From: a virus
Virus record (IMG/VR): IMGVR_UViG_3300032235_000182
Location: 1-27,289 of that record
Length of the DNA: 27,289 nt
Reading direction: 5' to 3' (one strand)
A program made the position numbers and the translations under genes. Under the pieces are notes generated by a model. The model saw only the letters and a list, made by a program, of their open reading frames with translations. It was not told where the DNA came from and did no database searches. Shown here piece by piece: positions 4,225-23,144 of the stretch (positions within the stretch are counted from its first letter, which is position 1; each line of letters opens with the position of its first letter).

Positions 4225-4566
4225 ATGAGTAAGCAACCTCGTGATGACGGCAATGCCGCTATACCAGTTCTCAGCTATAAATATCATGGCGGCCAAAGCA
4301 TTGCTTTCGGCGGAGCTTCAGTACGCAGTACTGAATTTGGCGGTTCCACACGTGTAGTATCGCTATATACTAATGAAGGTTGCTTTTTTGAGATTGGCGA
4401 CTCTACTGTAGAATCTAACACTTCGAATTCTCACATACTTCCAGCAGGGGTTTATATAGATGTATCTCTAGGATCTGAGATTATTTCTACACAGAATCAA
4501 AAGTATATATCTGCAATTGGTTTAGACGGTAACGAAGGTATCTTATATATTAGCGAGCGTGTCTAA
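4225..4566 (+). CDS. Small virion-associated protein of unknown function
   Basis: A 113-residue, beta-rich protein with no motif I recognise. It has a strong ribosome binding site (AGGAG at 4215-4219, 5 bases before the ATG) and ends in TAATG, overlapping the next gene by one base. Its place among fibre genes, lack of signal peptide or membrane segment, and alternating hydrophobic/polar pattern (for example VVSLYTNEGCFFEIGDSTV, 44-62) suggest a small fibre accessory or decoration protein. A perfect 8-bp stem with a 3-base loop lies at 4317-4335, but that length is expected by chance. Confidence 0.5.
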   Translation: MSKQPRDDGNAAIPVLSYKYHGGQSIAFGGASVRSTEFGGSTRVVSLYTNEGCFFEIGDSTVESNTSNSHILPAGVYIDVSLGSEIISTQNQKYISAIGLDGNEGILYISERV

Positions 4567-4799
4567 TGAGTTTAATTACCAACTTAATATTATCTATTAC
4601 AGCAATTAATCGTAAACTTCGCCCTGCCCCCCAACCGCAGGGCGAAGGATTTGATGTATTGCTCACTCAATCGGATGATGCTATAATTGCTCAAGATGGC
4701 AGATTTATAGTTCGCCAAACTGTACTATATGAACTAGAAACTCAAGATGGCTTACTGCTGTTAACTCAAGACGGTAAACAACTTGTAGTAGGATTCTAA
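4566..4799 (+). CDS. Small protein with TQDG repeats, unknown function
   Basis: A 77-residue protein. Residues 1-18 are hydrophobic and could form a short helix; 19-28 form a Pro/Gln linker (RPAPQPQGEG); the rest contains three related beta-strand units built on L-TQ-D and AQDGRFIV / TQDGLLLL / TQDGKQLVV. This kind of short TQDG repeat suits a small fibre-associated protein. It is translationally coupled on both sides, TAATG with the upstream gene and a one-base overlap with the fibre gene downstream. The linker is encoded by an 11-bp perfect inverted repeat (4617-4647). Function not assigned. Confidence 0.5.
   Translation: MSLITNLILSITAINRKLRPAPQPQGEGFDVLLTQSDDAIIAQDGRFIVRQTVLYELETQDGLLLLTQDGKQLVVGF
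4617..4647. repeat. GC-rich 11-bp inverted repeat with 9-base loop inside a coding sequence
   Basis: CTTCGCCCTGC (4617-4627) pairs perfectly with GCAGGGCGAAG (4637-4647) around a 9-base loop. It begins 51 bases after the ATG at 4566. With equal base frequencies, about 0.07 such stems (loop 3-12) would be expected in a window this size. It uses codons CCC, CCG and GCC that look scarce in the surrounding AT-rich genes. Loop size and distance from the start codon match the 15-bp hairpin at 18876-18914. Confidence 0.85.
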
Positions 4800-6562
4800 T
4801 GGCAAACGTAAAAATAACGCAGCTAGAGCATATATCTAGTTCTCAACTTGCACCAGAAGATGTTTTTGTTGTTGACGACGTATCTACGTTAGTCACCCGT
4901 AAACTCACACTTGCTAACCTAATACGTTATAGTGGCAATGCTCATGCAGTTCAATCAAACTTAACTTCATACATCACTATATCTACAGCTAACGCTGCTG
5001 CCCTAGCTAACTCAATAGCTAACTTTGGTAGCGGCGGTTTTGCGCTAAATATAATTGGCGATGCGGGTACAGATACTGTACAAGTTGGTGTTGACAGTTT
5101 AAGCTTTACAGGTGGTGTAGGTCTAAGCTCTTCCATAACTAATAACACTGTTATTTTTAATTTAGATAACACTGCGGTTGTATCTGGTACTTATGGTGGA
5201 GTTGGTGCTACAACTGTTGTACCTATCATAACTATTGATGCTCAAGGTCGTATCGTAAGCGCGTCTAATGCTAGCGTGAGTGTAGATCTTTCTGAAGTAG
5301 ATTCTAGACTAGACAACGTTGAAAGTGCTATAGGCAACTTAATAAACGGTACTACAACCTTCACTGCTAATCTTACCGTAGCTGGAGAGGTATCAGCTAA
5401 CAGATATAATGTATCTGGTTATGGCGATATAATCGACTCTACTGGTGCTTGGATTGGTCCGTCTAGTGGTCTTTTCGGATATACTGGTAGTGCTGGTATT
5501 AACGGTTTTACTGGTAGTGCAGGTAGTCTAGGTGTAGACGGCTATGCTGGTTCTGTAGGCTTTAGCGGATCTAAAGGCGATATCGGCTTTACTGGTAGTG
5601 CTGGTTTTGCAGGTAGTGTAGGCTTTGTTGGGTCTAAGGGTGATATAGGTTTTAGCGGTTCTCGCGGTGACCTAGGCTACACCGGCTCTCAAGGTGTTAC
5701 GGGTTTTAGTGGTAGCTCAGGCGTACAAGGTGTTACAGGCTTTACTGGTTCTCGTGGAGATACAGGTTTTGTAGGATCGTTTGGTGCTACTGGTTTTGTA
5801 GGATCTCAAGGTGTTATAGGATTCAGTGGTAGCACTGGTTTTACAGGCTCTATTGGGTACAGCGGGTCAGTAGGATTTACTGGATCACAGGGCTCAACCG
5901 GTTTTGTTGGTTCTCGCGGAGATTTAGGCTATAGCGGTTCTATAGGTTTCACGGGTAGTCTTGGTGCCGTTGGTTTTACAGGATCAGTAGGTTTTGTCGG
6001 TTCTGTAGGCTATACTGGAAGTATAGGCTTTTCTGGAAGCCAAGGTAGAATAACTACGGATGCAGCAGTTCCTCCTACTTCTCCTTATCAAGGGCAAATC
6101 TGGTTTAATACTGAATCACTAAAGACCTATGTATACTATGATTCATTCTGGGTAGAGGTTGGCGGGTCTGAGCTAGGTACACTATATACTAGAAGCGGTT
6201 TTACTGCTACAACCTCTAGCATATCTAATAATAGTTCTACTAATATAAATATAACTGGATACAAAAGCTACGTACTAATGTCAGTAAGTACAAGCCACGC
6301 GTCTTGGGTACGTTTATACTGTGACCAAGCTTCTCGCACGGCTGACGAAAGCAGACCTATTTACACTGATCCACTAGCTGGATCTGGAGTTATAGCAGAG
6401 TTTATTACTACAGGTAATCAAACCATAAAAGTTACACCGTTTATTTTTGGTGGAAACATGGAAACAACCCCTACTGACGACTTATATATTAGAGTCACTA
6501 ATTTATCTGGTAGCACTGCTGCTATAAGTGTTAGTGCTTTACTAACTAGATTGGAGATCTAA
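4799..6562 (+). CDS. Collagen-like tail fibre (64 G-X-Y triplets)
   Basis: A 587-residue fibre. Residues 1-40 carry the N-terminal pattern KITQL...DVFVVDDVS...TRKLTLANL, common on fibres of aquatic phages and probably the virion attachment part. Residues 227-418 are 64 uninterrupted G-X-Y triplets (mostly GFT, GSV, GSK-GDI, GFS), which should form a trimeric collagen-like helix of roughly 55 nm. Residues 428-453 (PPTSPYQGQIWFNTESLKTYVYYDSFW) resemble a common fibre linker motif, and the last about 120 residues form a beta domain, likely a trimeric receptor-binding tip. It overlaps the upstream gene by one base. There is no proline in the triplets. Confidence 0.75.
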   Translation: MANVKITQLEHISSSQLAPEDVFVVDDVSTLVTRKLTLANLIRYSGNAHAVQSNLTSYITISTANAAALANSIANFGSGGFALNIIGDAGTDTVQVGVDSLSFTGGVGLSSSITNNTVIFNLDNTAVVSGTYGGVGATTVVPIITIDAQGRIVSASNASVSVDLSEVDSRLDNVESAIGNLINGTTTFTANLTVAGEVSANRYNVSGYGDIIDSTGAWIGPSSGLFGYTGSAGINGFTGSAGSLGVDGYAGSVGFSGSKGDIGFTGSAGFAGSVGFVGSKGDIGFSGSRGDLGYTGSQGVTGFSGSSGVQGVTGFTGSRGDTGFVGSFGATGFVGSQGVIGFSGSTGFTGSIGYSGSVGFTGSQGSTGFVGSRGDLGYSGSIGFTGSLGAVGFTGSVGFVGSVGYTGSIGFSGSQGRITTDAAVPPTSPYQGQIWFNTESLKTYVYYDSFWVEVGGSELGTLYTRSGFTATTSSISNNSSTNINITGYKSYVLMSVSTSHASWVRLYCDQASRTADESRPIYTDPLAGSGVIAEFITTGNQTIKVTPFIFGGNMETTPTDDLYIRVTNLSGSTAAISVSALLTRLEI

Positions 6563-8701: not shown

Positions 8702-8932
8702 ATGCTAAGATGGAACGCTAATTTTCAAATACCAAACTCAGGTACTCAGTCTGCCTGGGTATATCTATATGCTGACACAGATGAAAGCATAGCCACTCTA
8801 AGCTTTTATCCCGAAGACACTAAAACAAATCTCATATTTAAAAAAGATATAGAATATAAAGCCGAATATGGAGATATATATACTTATCTCTTAACTCTGG
8901 CAGAGTATGAGCATTACGAAAGAGTTAGTTAA
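8702..8932 (+). CDS. Small virion-region protein, unknown
   Basis: A 76-residue protein, aromatic-rich (WNANF, WVYLYADTDESI, YKAEYGDIYTYLL, YEHYERV), with a beta N-terminal half and a probable helix at the end. It directly abuts the 60-residue gene and its stop overlaps the ATG of the giant collagen-like fibre in TAATG, which implies coupled translation with that fibre. A fibre partner or attachment adaptor would fit, but nothing in the sequence proves it. Confidence 0.45.
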   Translation: MLRWNANFQIPNSGTQSAWVYLYADTDESIATLSFYPEDTKTNLIFKKDIEYKAEYGDIYTYLLTLAEYEHYERVS

Positions 8933-11900
8933 TGGCTGCTTATGATTTTCCAAATAATCCAACAATAGGCGATAGAGTAACAGTCGGTACGCAAACACGC
9001 GAATGGACTGGTACAGTATGGGCTTTAGTACCTACGTTAGTAACTGGGCCTACTGGCTATACAGGCTCTACAGGCTTTGTTGGTTCTAGGGGATCAAGCG
9101 GTTTTACAGGTTCAATAGGTTTCACTGGTAGTGTTGGCGTTACTGGTGCAACAGGTTTTGCAGGATCTGTAGGTTCTCAAGGAACTTTAGGATTTAGCGG
9201 GTCTGTTGGATTTACTGGCTCTGTTGGTACTTCCGGCAGTGTAGGTTTTACTGGTTCTAAAGGTGATGCTGGTACTAGCGGTTTTACAGGTTCTAAAGGC
9301 GATAGCGGCTTTAGTGGTAGCATAGGATCCACAGGCTTTACTGGTAGCACAGGATCCCAAGGAGCTACAGGTTTTACTGGTTCTAAAGGTGATTTAGGTA
9401 ATACTGGTTTTACTGGGTCTGTAGGCGCTCAAGGCCTTACAGGCTTTACAGGTTCTATAGGCTCTCAAGGCGCTACAGGTTTTTCGGGTTCTAAAGGTGA
9501 TATAGGTACTACCGGCTTTACAGGCAGCGTAGGCTCACAAGGTACTACTGGCTTTACAGGCTCCAAAGGTGATATAGGTTTTAGTGGCTCAGTAGGTGCC
9601 CAAGGCGTAACTGGTTTTACTGGTAGTTTAGGCTCTCAAGGTACAACTGGCTTTACTGGTTCTACTGGTACTCAAGGTACTACAGGTTTCACAGGATCTC
9701 AAGGCGTAACTGGATTTACAGGTTCTAACGGTGTTTCCGGTTTTACAGGATCAGTTGGTTTTGTAGGCTCTAGAGGTCAAGACGGAAGTTTTGGCGGAGC
9801 AACATTTGATTATACTTTTGACACAGCTACAACATCTAGTGATCCAGGTGTAGGCAGATTAAAATTTAATAATGCTACGTTGTCTACAGCTACATCTTTA
9901 TTTATAGACGCAACTAACGACGCGTCAACTGATATTTCTACCTTCCTTAACACTATAGATGACAGTACAAGCACTATTAAAGGACACTTTAGGGTATCAA
10001 AGAAATTTGATGCAAATACTTTTGCGTTGTACACTATAACAAGTCTTACAAATAACACTGGTTGGTTTACTGTTGTGTGTAGCTATGTATCCGGTAACGG
10101 AACATTTGCCAACAATGATGATATACTTATAACCTTTGCTAGAACTGGTGACAAAGGTGATACAGGTTTTACAGGCTCTACTGGTATTCAAGGCGTGGCT
10201 GGTTTTACTGGAAGTGCTGGGTTTACAGGATCACTCGGAAATACAGGATTTACGGGGTCTGTAGGTGCTCAAGGGGTTACTGGGTTTACAGGCTCTATAG
10301 GCGCTACTGGTTTTAGTGGCTCTGTAGGTTCTCAAGGAGTTACAGGTTTTACAGGCTCTGTAGGCGCGCAAGGAGTAACGGGTTTTACTGGTAGTGTAGG
10401 ATCACAAGGTACTACCGGCTTTACTGGGTCTGTAGGTGCTCAAGGGGTTACTGGGTTTACAGGTTCTACTGGTAGTCAGGGTACAACTGGTTTTACTGGA
10501 TCTAAAGGTGATGTAGGTACTACTGGTTTTACCGGCTCTAAAGGTGATCTAGGTAATACAGGATTTACTGGCTCTGTAGGTGCTCAGGGTGTAACAGGGT
10601 TTACTGGTTCCGTAGGAGCTACAGGTTTTAGCGGCTCTATAGGATCAACTGGATTTACTGGTTCTCAAGGAACTCAAGGTGTTACTGGCTTTACTGGTTC
10701 TCAAGGTATCCAAGGTACTACAGGTTTTTCTGGTAGTATAGGATCAACAGGATTTACCGGTAGTGTAGGTTTTCAAGGTGTTACTGGCTTTACTGGGTCT
10801 GTAGGTTTTCAAGGTGTTACTGGCTTTACTGGGTCTGTCGGTTCACAAGGTAATACAGGTTTTACAGGGTCTGTCGGTTCACAAGGTACTACAGGTTTTA
10901 CAGGTAGTGTAGGTTCTCAAGGTATACAAGGTACTACTGGCTTTACTGGTAGCGTAGGATCTCAAGGTACTACTGGCTTTACTGGGTCTGTAGGTATACA
11001 AGGTACTACTGGCTTTACAGGGTCTGTAGGTATTCAAGGTACTACTGGCTTTACAGGGTCTAAAGGTGATGTAGGTACTACTGGCTTTACAGGGTCTAAA
11101 GGTGATGTAGGCACGACTGGCTTTACTGGCTCTATAGGTTCTCAGGGTACTACTGGCTTTACAGGTAGCGTAGGTGCTCAAGGAACAACCGGGTTTACAG
11201 GTAGCGTAGGCTTTGCTGGCTCTGTAGGTACAACTGGGTTTACTGGTTCCTTTGGTAATACTGGTTTCAGTGGTTCCCAAGGTGTGTCCGGATTTACTGG
11301 CTCACAAGGAACTCAAGGTGTTACAGGGTTTACAGGTTCTAAAGGTGATGTTGGAACAACAGGTTTCACAGGCTCTGTAGGTTCTCAGGGTACAACAGGA
11401 TTTACTGGTAGTGTAGGTTCCCAAGGTACAACCGGCTTTACAGGTAGCGTAGGTTCTCAGGGTACTACGGGCTTTACAGGTAGCGTAGGATCACAAGGCG
11501 TAACCGGATTTACTGGTAGCGTAGGTTCTCAAGGCACTACTGGCTTTACCGGTAGCGTAGGTTCTCAGGGTACTACAGGCTTTACAGGTTCTGTAGGATC
11601 ACAAGGTACTACCGGCTTTACTGGGTCTGTAGGTTCTCAAGGTGTTACAGGATTTACGGGTTCTGTAGGCGGAACAGGGTTCACTGGTAGCGTTGGTTTT
11701 GCAGGATCAGTAGGCTCACAAGGTGTAACAGGATTTACAGGTTCTCAAGGCGTAATAGGTTTTAGCGGTTCTATTGGTAACTTAGGTAACACAGGTTTTA
11801 CAGGATCTGTAGGCGGTCTTGGTTTCTCTGGTAGCGTAGGTTCTCAAGGTACTACAGGTTTTACCGGCTCTGTAGGATTTACAGGTTCTTCTGGTAACCA

Positions 11901-12480
11901 AGGTACTACTGGCTTTACAGGTAGCGTAGGATCTCAGGGAACTACTGGCTTTACAGGCTCTGTAGGTTCTCAAGGTACTACTGGCTTTACAGGTTCTGTA
12001 GGCTCACAAGGTACTACTGGATTTACAGGGTCTGTTGGTCTTGTAGGCTTTACAGGTTCTATAGGTACCGTAGGCTTCACCGGTAGTGGCGGTACTGGAT
12101 TTACTGGTAGCGTAGGCGCTGCAGCAACTGTAGTATGGTCAAGAAAGACTGCAAACTATACTGCTGTAACAGGAGATTCTATAATAGCAGATACTAGTGG
12201 TGGAACATTTACTATCACTTTACCTGCTTCTCCTGTATTAGGTAGCTTAGTTACTGTAGCAGATGGTGCCAATTGGTCTATAAATCCCTTGACTATTTCT
12301 AGAAATGGAAATACAATTGAGGGACAAGCTCAAGATTTCCTACTAGATATTAAAAATGTTAAAGTAGATTTTGCGTATGATGGCAGCACATGGCAACTTT
12401 ATTCTTCTGTAGGCGCTCAGTATAACTCTGAGCAAGCTGTTATAGCTTTAGCAGCTTCTATGGCAATTGCTCTAGGCTAA
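8932..12480 (+). CDS. Giant collagen-like tail fibre (about 302 G-X-Y triplets)
   Basis: A 1182-residue fibre. Residues 1-38 are an attachment/linker motif of the YDFPNNPTIGD...EWTGTVW type, common on phage fibres. Residues 39-287 are 83 unbroken G-X-Y triplets. Residues 290-405 are a non-collagen island (FDYTFDTATTSSDPGVGRLKFNNATL, then DISTFLNTIDDSTSTIKGH), a module I know from aquatic phage fibres. Residues 406-1064 are about 219 more triplets built on a 12-residue super-repeat GFT-GSV-GSQ-GTT, broken only near GFTGSGGTGFTGS. Residues 1065-1182 form a beta domain ending in MAIALG. The triplets contain only one proline, so stability must come from Thr, Gln, Lys-Gly-Asp pairs or modification. 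Repeats this uniform could be misassembled, so the true length is uncertain. Confidence 0.8.
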   Translation: MAAYDFPNNPTIGDRVTVGTQTREWTGTVWALVPTLVTGPTGYTGSTGFVGSRGSSGFTGSIGFTGSVGVTGATGFAGSVGSQGTLGFSGSVGFTGSVGTSGSVGFTGSKGDAGTSGFTGSKGDSGFSGSIGSTGFTGSTGSQGATGFTGSKGDLGNTGFTGSVGAQGLTGFTGSIGSQGATGFSGSKGDIGTTGFTGSVGSQGTTGFTGSKGDIGFSGSVGAQGVTGFTGSLGSQGTTGFTGSTGTQGTTGFTGSQGVTGFTGSNGVSGFTGSVGFVGSRGQDGSFGGATFDYTFDTATTSSDPGVGRLKFNNATLSTATSLFIDATNDASTDISTFLNTIDDSTSTIKGHFRVSKKFDANTFALYTITSLTNNTGWFTVVCSYVSGNGTFANNDDILITFARTGDKGDTGFTGSTGIQGVAGFTGSAGFTGSLGNTGFTGSVGAQGVTGFTGSIGATGFSGSVGSQGVTGFTGSVGAQGVTGFTGSVGSQGTTGFTGSVGAQGVTGFTGSTGSQGTTGFTGSKGDVGTTGFTGSKGDLGNTGFTGSVGAQGVTGFTGSVGATGFSGSIGSTGFTGSQGTQGVTGFTGSQGIQGTTGFSGSIGSTGFTGSVGFQGVTGFTGSVGFQGVTGFTGSVGSQGNTGFTGSVGSQGTTGFTGSVGSQGIQGTTGFTGSVGSQGTTGFTGSVGIQGTTGFTGSVGIQGTTGFTGSKGDVGTTGFTGSKGDVGTTGFTGSIGSQGTTGFTGSVGAQGTTGFTGSVGFAGSVGTTGFTGSFGNTGFSGSQGVSGFTGSQGTQGVTGFTGSKGDVGTTGFTGSVGSQGTTGFTGSVGSQGTTGFTGSVGSQGTTGFTGSVGSQGVTGFTGSVGSQGTTGFTGSVGSQGTTGFTGSVGSQGTTGFTGSVGSQGVTGFTGSVGGTGFTGSVGFAGSVGSQGVTGFTGSQGVIGFSGSIGNLGNTGFTGSVGGLGFSGSVGSQGTTGFTGSVGFTGSSGNQGTTGFTGSVGSQGTTGFTGSVGSQGTTGFTGSVGSQGTTGFTGSVGLVGFTGSIGTVGFTGSGGTGFTGSVGAAATVVWSRKTANYTAVTGDSIIADTSGGTFTITLPASPVLGSLVTVADGANWSINPLTISRNGNTIEGQAQDFLLDIKNVKVDFAYDGSTWQLYSSVGAQYNSEQAVIALAASMAIALG
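9046..9798 (+). repeat. Collagen-coding minisatellite, first block
   Basis: This stretch encodes 83 G-X-Y triplets plus a final Gly-Gly. At DNA level it is a degenerate 9/18/36-base periodic array with variable third codon positions. It is more diverged than the second block and has interspersed GSK-GDx units with opposite charges. Length change in multiples of 9 or 36 bases would keep the frame. Confidence 0.85.
10147..12120 (+). repeat. Collagen-coding minisatellite, second block, 36-bp period
   Basis: About 219 G-X-Y codon triplets with a dominant 36-base (12-codon) period. An exact 36-base tandem duplication is present (10765-10800 and 10801-10836), as are near-identical units at about 10965-11120 and a repeat of more than 30 bases shared by 10258 and 10430. 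These suggest recent expansion by unequal recombination or slippage. Antisense reading frames over this stretch (10879-11280, 11782-11973) are by-products of the repeat. Confidence 0.85.
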
Positions 12481-18753: not shown

Positions 18754-18789
18754 ACGCTTTAAGAAAGTTATGGTAAAAGCTACTATCTG

Positions 18790-18798
18790 TGTTATAAT
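18790..18798 (+). promoter_or_regulatory. Extended -10 promoter of the glycosyltransferase genes
   Basis: TGT-TATAAT is a perfect extended -10 element (TGnTATAAT). No good -35 box lies 16-18 bases upstream; TTATGG at 18768 is 19 bases away and weak, which is typical of extended -10 promoters. The gene start at 18822 would give a leader of about 17 bases, with a weak GGAA ribosome binding site. Confidence 0.6.
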
Positions 18799-18821: not shown

Positions 18822-20810
18822 ATGAAAATAGCTATTATAGATTTATTAGGTTTAACCTATGATGGAAATACCCTTAATAACCGCGGACTCGGTGGCTCTG
18901 AGTCCGCGGTTATTCTTATGTCTAGCGAACTAGCAAAGCTAGGCTATGATGTAACTGTATATTGCTCATGTATTGATTCTGAGGCAAAACCCGGAATATA
19001 TGACGGTGTACGCTATATTGATCACTCACAGCTTGATGCTAGTGAACAGTATGATATAGCTATAGCATCACGCACAGTACAGCCATTTAGAGCCTCTAAC
19101 CCTTATGCAGCACTCGTAATGCGTGCACAGTATAGAGTGCTATGGATGCATGACACATTTACTGACGGTGATCAAGATTTAGAAGCTATGGTTGTAAGCG
19201 GGTTTATAAATCGTATCTTTACTCTTAGCGACTTTCACACAGTCTACGCTACAAATTGCGATCACGGAGCGCGGCGTAATTTTGAAATGCTTAAGCCGTA
19301 CATATTCCAAACTCGTAATGGAGCAGTTAAGCATATAGCTGATGTAGATGTTAGTGCTAAAGATCGTAATCTTTTTGTGTACAATGCTAGTGCAACCAAA
19401 GGACTCATACCATTAGTTCGTAACATTTGGCCACGAGTTAAAACTGCAATTCCTGACGCTAAGTTGATCTGTATAGGTGGGTACTATCGCTTTCGTGAAG
19501 GTGCTGAACCTGACGAACAAGAACGTACAGTGCGTGACTTAGTAAACGATAAGAACCTTGCAGCATTAGACGTGCAGTTTACTGGTGTTATTAAGCAGAG
19601 TGAGATTGCTCGCATTTTAGCTAATGCTAGCTTTATGCTATACCCTACAGCTTTTCCTGAAACATTTGGAATTAGCTCACTAGAGTCGCTACTATATCGT
19701 ACTCCTATTATCACTGCACGATTTGGGGCGTTAGAAGAAACAGCAATTGATAGCGCTTGTTATAAGCTGCCTTACTCTACAACTCCAAATTCACTATTTC
19801 CACGTATTGACGAACGTGCTCAAGCTATTGCTTTTGTAGAAGAGACACTACGTGCATACTATAATCCTTATCTGCTGCAACAAAAACAACATGCTTGTGC
19901 TGTAGTAGACGACATTCACTCTTGGGATACTGTCGCACTACAATGGCACCAACACTTCTACCGCCAGTTTAAGCTTCCGCTACCTGTAGATACTTATAGA
20001 GCTGTAACTCGTATTAACTCTAAAGTTGCTCGTATCTTTGGTAGACGCTTTAGTAATGAAGAGAGCACTAAAACGTATAGTAGCTATGGTCCAGAACGTC
20101 GTATAGTAGTAATCTCACCCTTTTATAATGCTGAATTGTACATTAAACGCTGTATAGATTCGGTAGCACAGCAAGATTATGACAACTATGTTCATTATCT
20201 AATCGATGACGTATCTACTGATCAGTCTTACCTTGCAGCACTTAATGCTATAGAAGCACTACCTCGATCTATAAAGCATCGTTTTAGACTAATGTCTAAC
20301 GAGACTAAACAGTACGCAATTGGTAATCAGTTCTATTGTTTTGGTAAAACACAGCCAGAAGATATAGTAATGTTGCTTGATGGCGATGATTGGTTAGTCT
20401 CTAATAACAGCATATTTAAGTTTTATAATGATATTTATGCTCAAGGCTATGATTTTACCTATGGATCTATGTGGAGTTTAGCAGATAACATTCCTCTAGT
20501 AGCTCAGCAATACCCTTCTAACATAGTTAAATCTAAAACTTACCGCTCTCATAAGTTCAATTGGGGCATTCCTTACACTCATTTGCGTACTACACTAGGA
20601 GTCCACACACATTCTCTAGAATCTGCGCAGTATAAGCGCAATGAAAAATGGTTTACAGCTGGTGCGGATAACCCACTTTTCTATGATTTAATTGAGCGCA
20701 GTAACAACCCACTCGCGGTACAAGAAATTGTATGCAATTATAACGACCTAAACCCTATAAATGATTACAAAGTTAATAGCTTTGATCAAAAACTTAACTC
20801 TAGGACCTAA
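18822..20810 (+). CDS. Bifunctional glycosyltransferase, GT4 plus GT2 domains
   Basis: A 662-residue fusion. The first part (about 1-385) is a GT-B fold GT4-type enzyme: the N-terminal glycine loop with GGSES (24-28), and the E-x7-E nucleotide-sugar motif at E280 and E288 within FPETFGISSLES. The second part (about 426-662) is a GT-A fold GT2 domain: VVISPFYNAELYIKRCIDS, then DDVSTD, then the metal-binding LLDGDDW (518-524). Each part would transfer a sugar from a nucleotide donor, so the protein could build a disaccharide. Substrate unknown. Its own promoter precedes it and a second sugar-modifying enzyme follows after 6 bases. Codons 19-31 form a perfect 15-bp hairpin. Confidence 0.8.
   Translation: MKIAIIDLLGLTYDGNTLNNRGLGGSESAVILMSSELAKLGYDVTVYCSCIDSEAKPGIYDGVRYIDHSQLDASEQYDIAIASRTVQPFRASNPYAALVMRAQYRVLWMHDTFTDGDQDLEAMVVSGFINRIFTLSDFHTVYATNCDHGARRNFEMLKPYIFQTRNGAVKHIADVDVSAKDRNLFVYNASATKGLIPLVRNIWPRVKTAIPDAKLICIGGYYRFREGAEPDEQERTVRDLVNDKNLAALDVQFTGVIKQSEIARILANASFMLYPTAFPETFGISSLESLLYRTPIITARFGALEETAIDSACYKLPYSTTPNSLFPRIDERAQAIAFVEETLRAYYNPYLLQQKQHACAVVDDIHSWDTVALQWHQHFYRQFKLPLPVDTYRAVTRINSKVARIFGRRFSNEESTKTYSSYGPERRIVVISPFYNAELYIKRCIDSVAQQDYDNYVHYLIDDVSTDQSYLAALNAIEALPRSIKHRFRLMSNETKQYAIGNQFYCFGKTQPEDIVMLLDGDDWLVSNNSIFKFYNDIYAQGYDFTYGSMWSLADNIPLVAQQYPSNIVKSKTYRSHKFNWGIPYTHLRTTLGVHTHSLESAQYKRNEKWFTAGADNPLFYDLIERSNNPLAVQEIVCNYNDLNPINDYKVNSFDQKLNSRT
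18876..18914. repeat. Perfect 15-bp inverted repeat with 9-base loop inside the GT4 coding sequence
   Basis: AATAACCGCGGACTC (18876-18890) pairs without mismatch with GAGTCCGCGGTTATT (18900-18914); loop 18891-18899. It begins 54 bases after the ATG at 18822 and covers the conserved GGSE motif. Equal base frequencies would give about 0.0003 such stems in this window. It needs codons (CGC, CTC, TCC, GCG) that look uncommon in the neighbouring genes. No T-run follows, so it is not a standard terminator. Confidence 0.95.
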
Positions 20811-22749: not shown

Positions 22750-22778
22750 TTGGACTTTTTTACTGCATTTGTTATACT
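22750..22778 (+). promoter_or_regulatory. Sigma-70-like promoter of the packaging genes
   Basis: TTGGAC (22750-22755), a 17-base spacer and TATACT (22773-22778), preceded by TG at -15 (TGT-TATACT), make this the best promoter in the window. Transcription would start near 22785, giving a leader of about 57 bases before the ATG at 22842, with AGGTGA as ribosome binding site. Confidence 0.75.
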
Positions 22779-22810
22779 AATACAGATGCAGTAAATATCA
22801 TTTACTGTAT
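22759..22810. promoter_or_regulatory. Probable operator: three TTTACTGCAT-type half-sites around the -10 box
   Basis: TTTACTGCAT (22759-22768) and its exact reverse complement ATGCAGTAAA (22786-22795) flank the -10 box with a 17-base gap. A third, near-identical half-site TTTACTGTAT follows at 22801-22810 in direct orientation. The second and third sites could also pair as a CAGTAAA/TTTACTG hairpin in the leader RNA. The placement fits a repressor that blocks polymerase. Confidence 0.55.
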
Positions 22811-22841: not shown

Positions 22842-23144
22842 ATGGAAACAAGTAGAGAGCTAGATCAAATTAGATCTGAGCTTAATAGTCTTCATGAGCG
22901 TACTAACAATAACAGAACTGCGTTAGCCACTCTTGAAGGTGTAAATGAGCAAAGATTTGACCACATATTAGCCTGTTTAGAAACTATGAGAAAAGAAATG
23001 GAAGCACAGAATGCAGCAATTTCTTCACTACAGTCTCTAGCAACTGAGGGCAAGACCTCATTAAAAACCTTGCTTTGGGTTGGTGGTTTTATAGCCAGCT
23101 TAGTAGCCTTTTTTGTTATGATGTACGACACACTACCTAAATGA
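22842..23144 (+). CDS. Coiled-coil, single-pass membrane protein (possible holin)
   Basis: A 100-residue protein. Residues 1-70 are predicted coiled coil (heptad-like Leu/Ile spacing in LDQIRSELNSLHERTNN and LETMRKEMEAQNAAISSL). Residues 77-95 form one membrane helix (LLWVGGFIASLVAFFVMMY) with a short TLPK end. This layout matches XhlA-like and other small phage membrane proteins that accompany lysis, so a holin or holin accessory role is plausible, but no endolysin is visible nearby. Its stop codon overlaps the large terminase start by 4 bases (ATGA). It is the first gene behind the strong promoter at 22750. A membrane anchor for packaging is another possibility. Confidence 0.45.
   Translation: METSRELDQIRSELNSLHERTNNNRTALATLEGVNEQRFDHILACLETMRKEMEAQNAAISSLQSLATEGKTSLKTLLWVGGFIASLVAFFVMMYDTLPK

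Follow-up and report, generated by a model that had tools for sequence, protein, structure and literature searches.

A strong hairpin early in the coding sequence of a phage glycosyltransferase gene, possibly kept by selection on mRNA structure

Introduction

Why does a phage glycosyltransferase gene carry a perfect, GC-rich hairpin shortly after its start codon, and does this hairpin serve the nucleic acid as well as the protein? The question arises from a 27,289-base virus record, analysed over its full length and called the window here, whose + strand carries tail, terminase, and portal genes and whose terminase shares ~40% identity with its counterparts in 109-119 kb phages (Serratia, Providencia, Erwinia, and relatives). 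An initial annotation had described a perfect 15-bp stem with a 9-base loop in codons 19-31, across the GGSE motif, and had concluded from its uncommon codons that selection seems to act on DNA or RNA structure in addition to protein. Transcription attenuation, a translation ramp, protein binding, recombination, and packaging were listed as possible roles.

The hairpin and its surroundings

The features discussed below are the following:

18766..18798, + strand: promoter-like block AGTT-N-TGGTAAA ... TGTTATAAT (extended -10), conserved in the window and four relatives, putatively active
18822..20810, + strand: two-domain glycosyltransferase gene, 662 aa (open reading frame with Pfam and PHROG matches)
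18852..18971, + strand: 5' coding stretch, nt 31-150, where codon choice in homologs favours mRNA structure
18876..18890, + strand: 5' arm of the stem, codons 19-23 (N N R G L)
18891..18899, + strand: loop, codons 24-26 (G G S), whose GG pairs with CU on folding and leaves a 5-nt loop
18900..18914, + strand: 3' arm of the stem, codons 27-31 (E S A V I), with TCC changed to TCT, hence a G-U pair, in 4/4 close relatives

Position and pairing were exactly as annotated: AATAACCGCGGACTC, GGTGGCTCT, and GAGTCCGCGGTTATT form arm, loop, and arm at 18876-18914 with 15/15 positions complementary, beginning ~55 bases past the start codon of a gene whose N-terminal part combines the GLGGSES motif with a glycosyl transferases group 1 domain and whose C-terminal part is a family 2 domain. 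Each arm contains the palindrome CCGCGG, and no perfect short-loop stem in the window is longer. Folding of the 5' mRNA, which had been proposed as a check, adds two pairs within the loop and gives 17 bp (including a G·U pair) at -29.2 kcal/mol, with the start region of the predicted transcript largely unpaired.

Since the promoter-like block lies just upstream, the stem is probably located ~65-105 nt into the transcript predicted from this block. Homology with the relatives G002, G003, and G004 sets in abruptly at 18758-18761, ~60 bp before the gene and at the promoter-like block, and the tail-fibre region upstream of this point is not homologous to them, making it a likely module boundary. 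Two large genes in the window (8932-12480 and 4799-6562) contain many collagen-like triple-helix repeats and presumably encode fibres. Overlapping intergenic hairpins (TTTACTGCAT...ATGCAGTAAA and CAGTAAAT...ATTTACTG) were also seen at 22759-22807, upstream of the terminase region.

Codon choice and chance expectation

With the protein fixed and codons drawn according to the usage of the window, the stem register typically yields ~8/15 pairs because the codons for R-G-L and E-S-A are inherently near-complementary, i.e. the protein motif alone provides about half of the pairing, and at least 14 pairs were reached in 0/20,000 draws. Resampling all 24 genes 200 times produced zero coding stems of at least 13 bp, while 1.7, 0.44, 0.07, and 0.015 stems of at least 9, 10, 11, and 12 bp, respectively, are expected per resampled window. 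Extrapolation from this 9-12 bp tail gives ~1e-4 to 3e-4 stems of at least 15 bp per window, so that the ~0.0003 estimated previously was about right. Such a value can be reached if many windows are read, and independent evidence is therefore needed. The codons of the stem are indeed uncommon (CTC 4%, TCC 4%, GCG 8%, CGC 15%). The step from uncommon codons to selection is inconclusive, however, as template-switch mutation also produces uncommon codons.

Conservation among close relatives

The glycosyltransferases of the four nearest relatives (contigs) are 83-86% identical in amino acids, and all four retain the stem, three with 14 Watson-Crick pairs and one G·U pair and the fourth (L003) with 13 pairs and one G·U pair in register and its outer pairs interrupted. 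The TCC to TCT exchange is the sole difference in the stem core between relatives and window, and the TCT variant pairs only on the sense strand (-27.0 kcal/mol, compared with -18.7 kcal/mol for the mismatched other strand). Where residues are identical between these genomes, ~43% of codons differ, whereas 8/10 stem codons are the same in the window and in the genomes of three relatives (P = 3.3e-4, matched for amino acid), in a sample of four relatives that represent effectively three lineages. Several other synonymous spots in the block are equally constrained, with the hairpin window ranking ~36 of 2244. Almost no synonymous change was observed among the relatives in codons 594-614 of the glycosyltransferase gene (~20601-20663), codons 366-396 of the portal gene, and codons 42-60 of TerL.

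Pairing and structure in the wider family

Across 63 further homologs with a GLGGSESA-type motif, pairing in the same register was near chance as judged by codon resampling; there was no consensus structure across homologs (zero pairs in RNAalifold) and covariation in the family barely exceeded that of shuffles. A family-wide conserved RNA element was rejected on the grounds of this near-chance register and the missing consensus fold. All Rfam hits were at chance level and below the gathering score. As distant homologs share the motif and do not pair in register, the stem is lineage-specific. The alignment proposed earlier, in search of compensatory synonymous changes in both arms, thus gave a divided answer, with the same helix not conserved in distant homologs and synonymous constraint in close ones. 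Likewise, homologs with the same protein motif and unpaired arms, which had been named as evidence against a structural role, do exist among the distant GLGGSESA proteins, although the four relatives retain the stem.

Stems of at least 8 bp with the same centre were found in 8/57 homologs compared to 0.6 expected. Four of these (L012, L015, L020, and L038, 0.4 expected) lie outside the clade of the window and belong to two further lineages in the tree, so that same-centre stems require three changes, which amounts to few independent events. In L012 the stem is 14 bp long; U-A takes the place of a C-G pair, and two pairs are G·U. Slightly upstream of the stem position in the window, codons 10-18 of L004, L005, L008, and L018 form a perfect stem of 9-10 bp, GGGTTGTGC-TATGATG-GCACAACCC. 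Uncommon codons at positions 19-31 are limited to the clade of the window, and therefore what the homologs have in common is pairing and not slow codons. A rare-codon ramp as a family trait was rejected, as the codons of other homologs are no rarer in this stretch.

Codon choice in the family favours structure in the early coding region without a fixed helix. We permuted synonymous codons inside 90-nt windows, leaving protein, codon make-up, and composition unchanged, for 40 homologs <72% identical to one another in nucleotides and with the clade of the window excluded. At nt 30-150 the MFE percentile averaged 0.25; it was ~0.42 further into the gene (P = 1.2e-5) and 0.41 for flanking open reading frames (P = 6.9e-6). 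The helices behind the signal at nt 30-150 vary between lineages. The sense strand was more structured than the antisense strand in this stretch (P = 0.002), whereas the strands did not differ significantly in three control regions. Another 30, more distant homologs showed a trend only (0.357 vs 0.419, P = 0.06; against flanking frames P = 0.10). Other genes of the phage group also lean towards structure at nt 31-120 (in the window 0.30 vs 0.50 mid-gene), and strong 5' coding structure was noted for a 100-aa gene before the large terminase (22842-23144) in the window, G001, and G002.

A second hairpin in the window

The 77-aa gene at 4566-4799 contains another strong coding hairpin. Its arms (4601-4627 and 4637-4663) share a perfect core of 11 bp and fold at -31.8 kcal/mol, and its distance from the start codon is close to that of the glycosyltransferase stem. 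Homologs of the gene were found in the same four relatives only, and ~50 nt around the hairpin are near-invariant in all four, with differing flanks. One core pair is broken in G001 and one in G003, and therefore the sequence rather than the pairing seems to be conserved. One could speculate that this glycosyltransferase branch is selected to keep its early coding region structured by one helix or another, with helices turning over while a timed post-start hairpin is kept, and that the second hairpin (4601-4663) points to a shared regulatory device, but we hold this broader scenario to be rather improbable.

Weighing the explanations

The stem may best be explained as a lineage-specific, unusually strong early-coding mRNA hairpin that selection on RNA structure maintains in a small clade of phages, a reading to which we assign a probability of roughly 0.5. 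An mRNA-level role is favoured because codon choice at nt 30-150 promotes structure in homologs with differing helices and because the sense strand shows the stronger signal. The main rival is template-switch mutation, which we regard as clearly less probable yet the most serious of the alternatives. Here, the inverted repeat arising from the protein motif would have been imperfect at first, and replication that switched templates between the two arms (quasipalindrome correction) would generate both the perfect stem and the rare codons without any structural selection. The near-complementary RGL and ESA codons (~8/15 pairs) offer a suitable substrate, same-centre stems occur in separate lineages, the outer pairs fall on the variable residues N19 and N20, and perfect coding stems of at least 9 bp are modestly above expectation in 3/5 phages. 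Published work reports that template switching generates and preserves hairpins and that it homogenises inverted repeats within coding sequences (PMC8794818, PMC8604942). However, such a process predicts strand symmetry, while the signal in the family is larger for the sense strand and G-U pairs persist; synonymous retention in diverged relatives is not accounted for unless correction recurs; and perfect stems exceed expectation only weakly across the genome, G001 and G004 showing no excess at 9 bp. The nearest outgroups, at ~62-64% protein identity, are too far away to reconstruct the event as a cluster of arm-copy mutations on a dated branch. Pure chance, i.e. a rare coincidence found among many windows and passed on to the relatives by shared ancestry, is unlikely: the expectation per window is attainable over many windows and the register is not conserved in the family, but synonymous conservation of the stem (P = 3e-4) and the excess of 5' structure in independent homologs are both separate from the discovery of the stem.

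Even less probable is an attenuator, in which case transcription started at the upstream promoter would end at the stem whenever no close-following ribosome kept it from folding. The conserved promoter-like block directly upstream would fit, as would the fact that the stem was selected by a terminator-like scan, its 10-bp GC-rich core being followed by TTATTCTT. Termination is nevertheless unlikely because the stem has no T-tract: the tail is CTTATGTC or TTATTCTT and has a T-tail score (nT) of 1.5-3.1, compared to 4.1-4.6 in three T5-T6 hairpins of relatives. In homologs, this region contains no more terminator-like sites than chance predicts (2 vs 1.9), and termination would truncate the gene's own mRNA. 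An intrinsic terminator was consequently rejected, given the missing T-rich tract and the chance-level site counts, and the attenuation role proposed in the initial annotation is disfavoured. Several hairpins resembling one another (CCCTGCATAA-CCTATTGA-TTATGCAGGG) and followed by T-tracts are present in the early part of G003 (loci L116-L119) and in G004, where they constitute a repeated terminator-like type. Least probable of all, and very unlikely, is a DNA-level site for protein binding, recombination, or packaging. The CCGCGG palindrome in both arms and the sharp onset of homology at 18758-18761 would be in line with such a site, but the homology breakpoint lies at the promoter-like block and outside the stem, the DNA of the relatives would carry a G-T mismatch, and the stem is present in a single copy in the window record. 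A 22-base pattern had two matches in 257 Gb, approximately the number expected by chance. These three suggested roles thus found no support, and a widespread repeat or mobile hairpin was rejected as well (one copy, approximately chance-level matches in 84,980 genomes).

A probable role in translation

The stem most likely acts in the mRNA, probably as an early-elongation hairpin, and judging from sequence and predicted folding its simplest role would be that of a slow point in early elongation or of a stabilising hairpin. The glycosyltransferase gene would be transcribed from its own promoter just upstream, and the start region would be mostly open. Given ribosome geometry, a ribosome near codons 14-16 would meet the base of the stem. 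The first ribosomes may thus slow at about this point, which could keep early ribosomes apart from one another or hold back the nascent chain; alternatively, the stem might steady the 5' part of the transcript. Among the roles listed in the initial annotation, a translation-related one would fit best. Its broader claim of selection on nucleic acid structure in addition to protein is supported for RNA by synonymous constraint, sense-strand bias, and 5' codon choice in divergent homologs, with the stem itself restricted to one lineage and the codon argument left inconclusive.

The locus is a small and testable example of codon choice in a phage gene that apparently serves both RNA folding and protein. 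Selection and template switching make different predictions, i.e. retention of G·U pairs on the sense strand versus strand-symmetric copying of arms. If the mRNA-level reading holds true, phages would tune the expression of a glycosyltransferase via the coding sequence itself.

Comparison with known systems

Intrinsic terminators and attenuators likewise combine a GC-rich stem with nearby promoter-like sequence, but the glycosyltransferase stem lies within codons and has no T-tract, unlike the T-tract hairpins of its relatives. Inverted repeats in coding sequence that template switching has homogenised (PMC8604942, PMC8794818) resemble it in their perfect coding arms, a prior imperfect repeat, and amino-acid change at variable residues, and differ from it in that G-U pairs are retained here across diverged phages and that the family shows a sense-strand bias. 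A survey of dsDNA viruses found mRNA stability lowered at the start of genes and tending to increase downstream (PMC3072339), and the same profile of an open start followed by structure from synonymous choice is seen here and in genes of the phage group. What sets this gene apart from that profile is a single GC-rich hairpin of 15-17 bp, far above the average effect and with constrained codons. Thus, the kind of feature is already known, and the glycosyltransferase stem is an extreme example of it.
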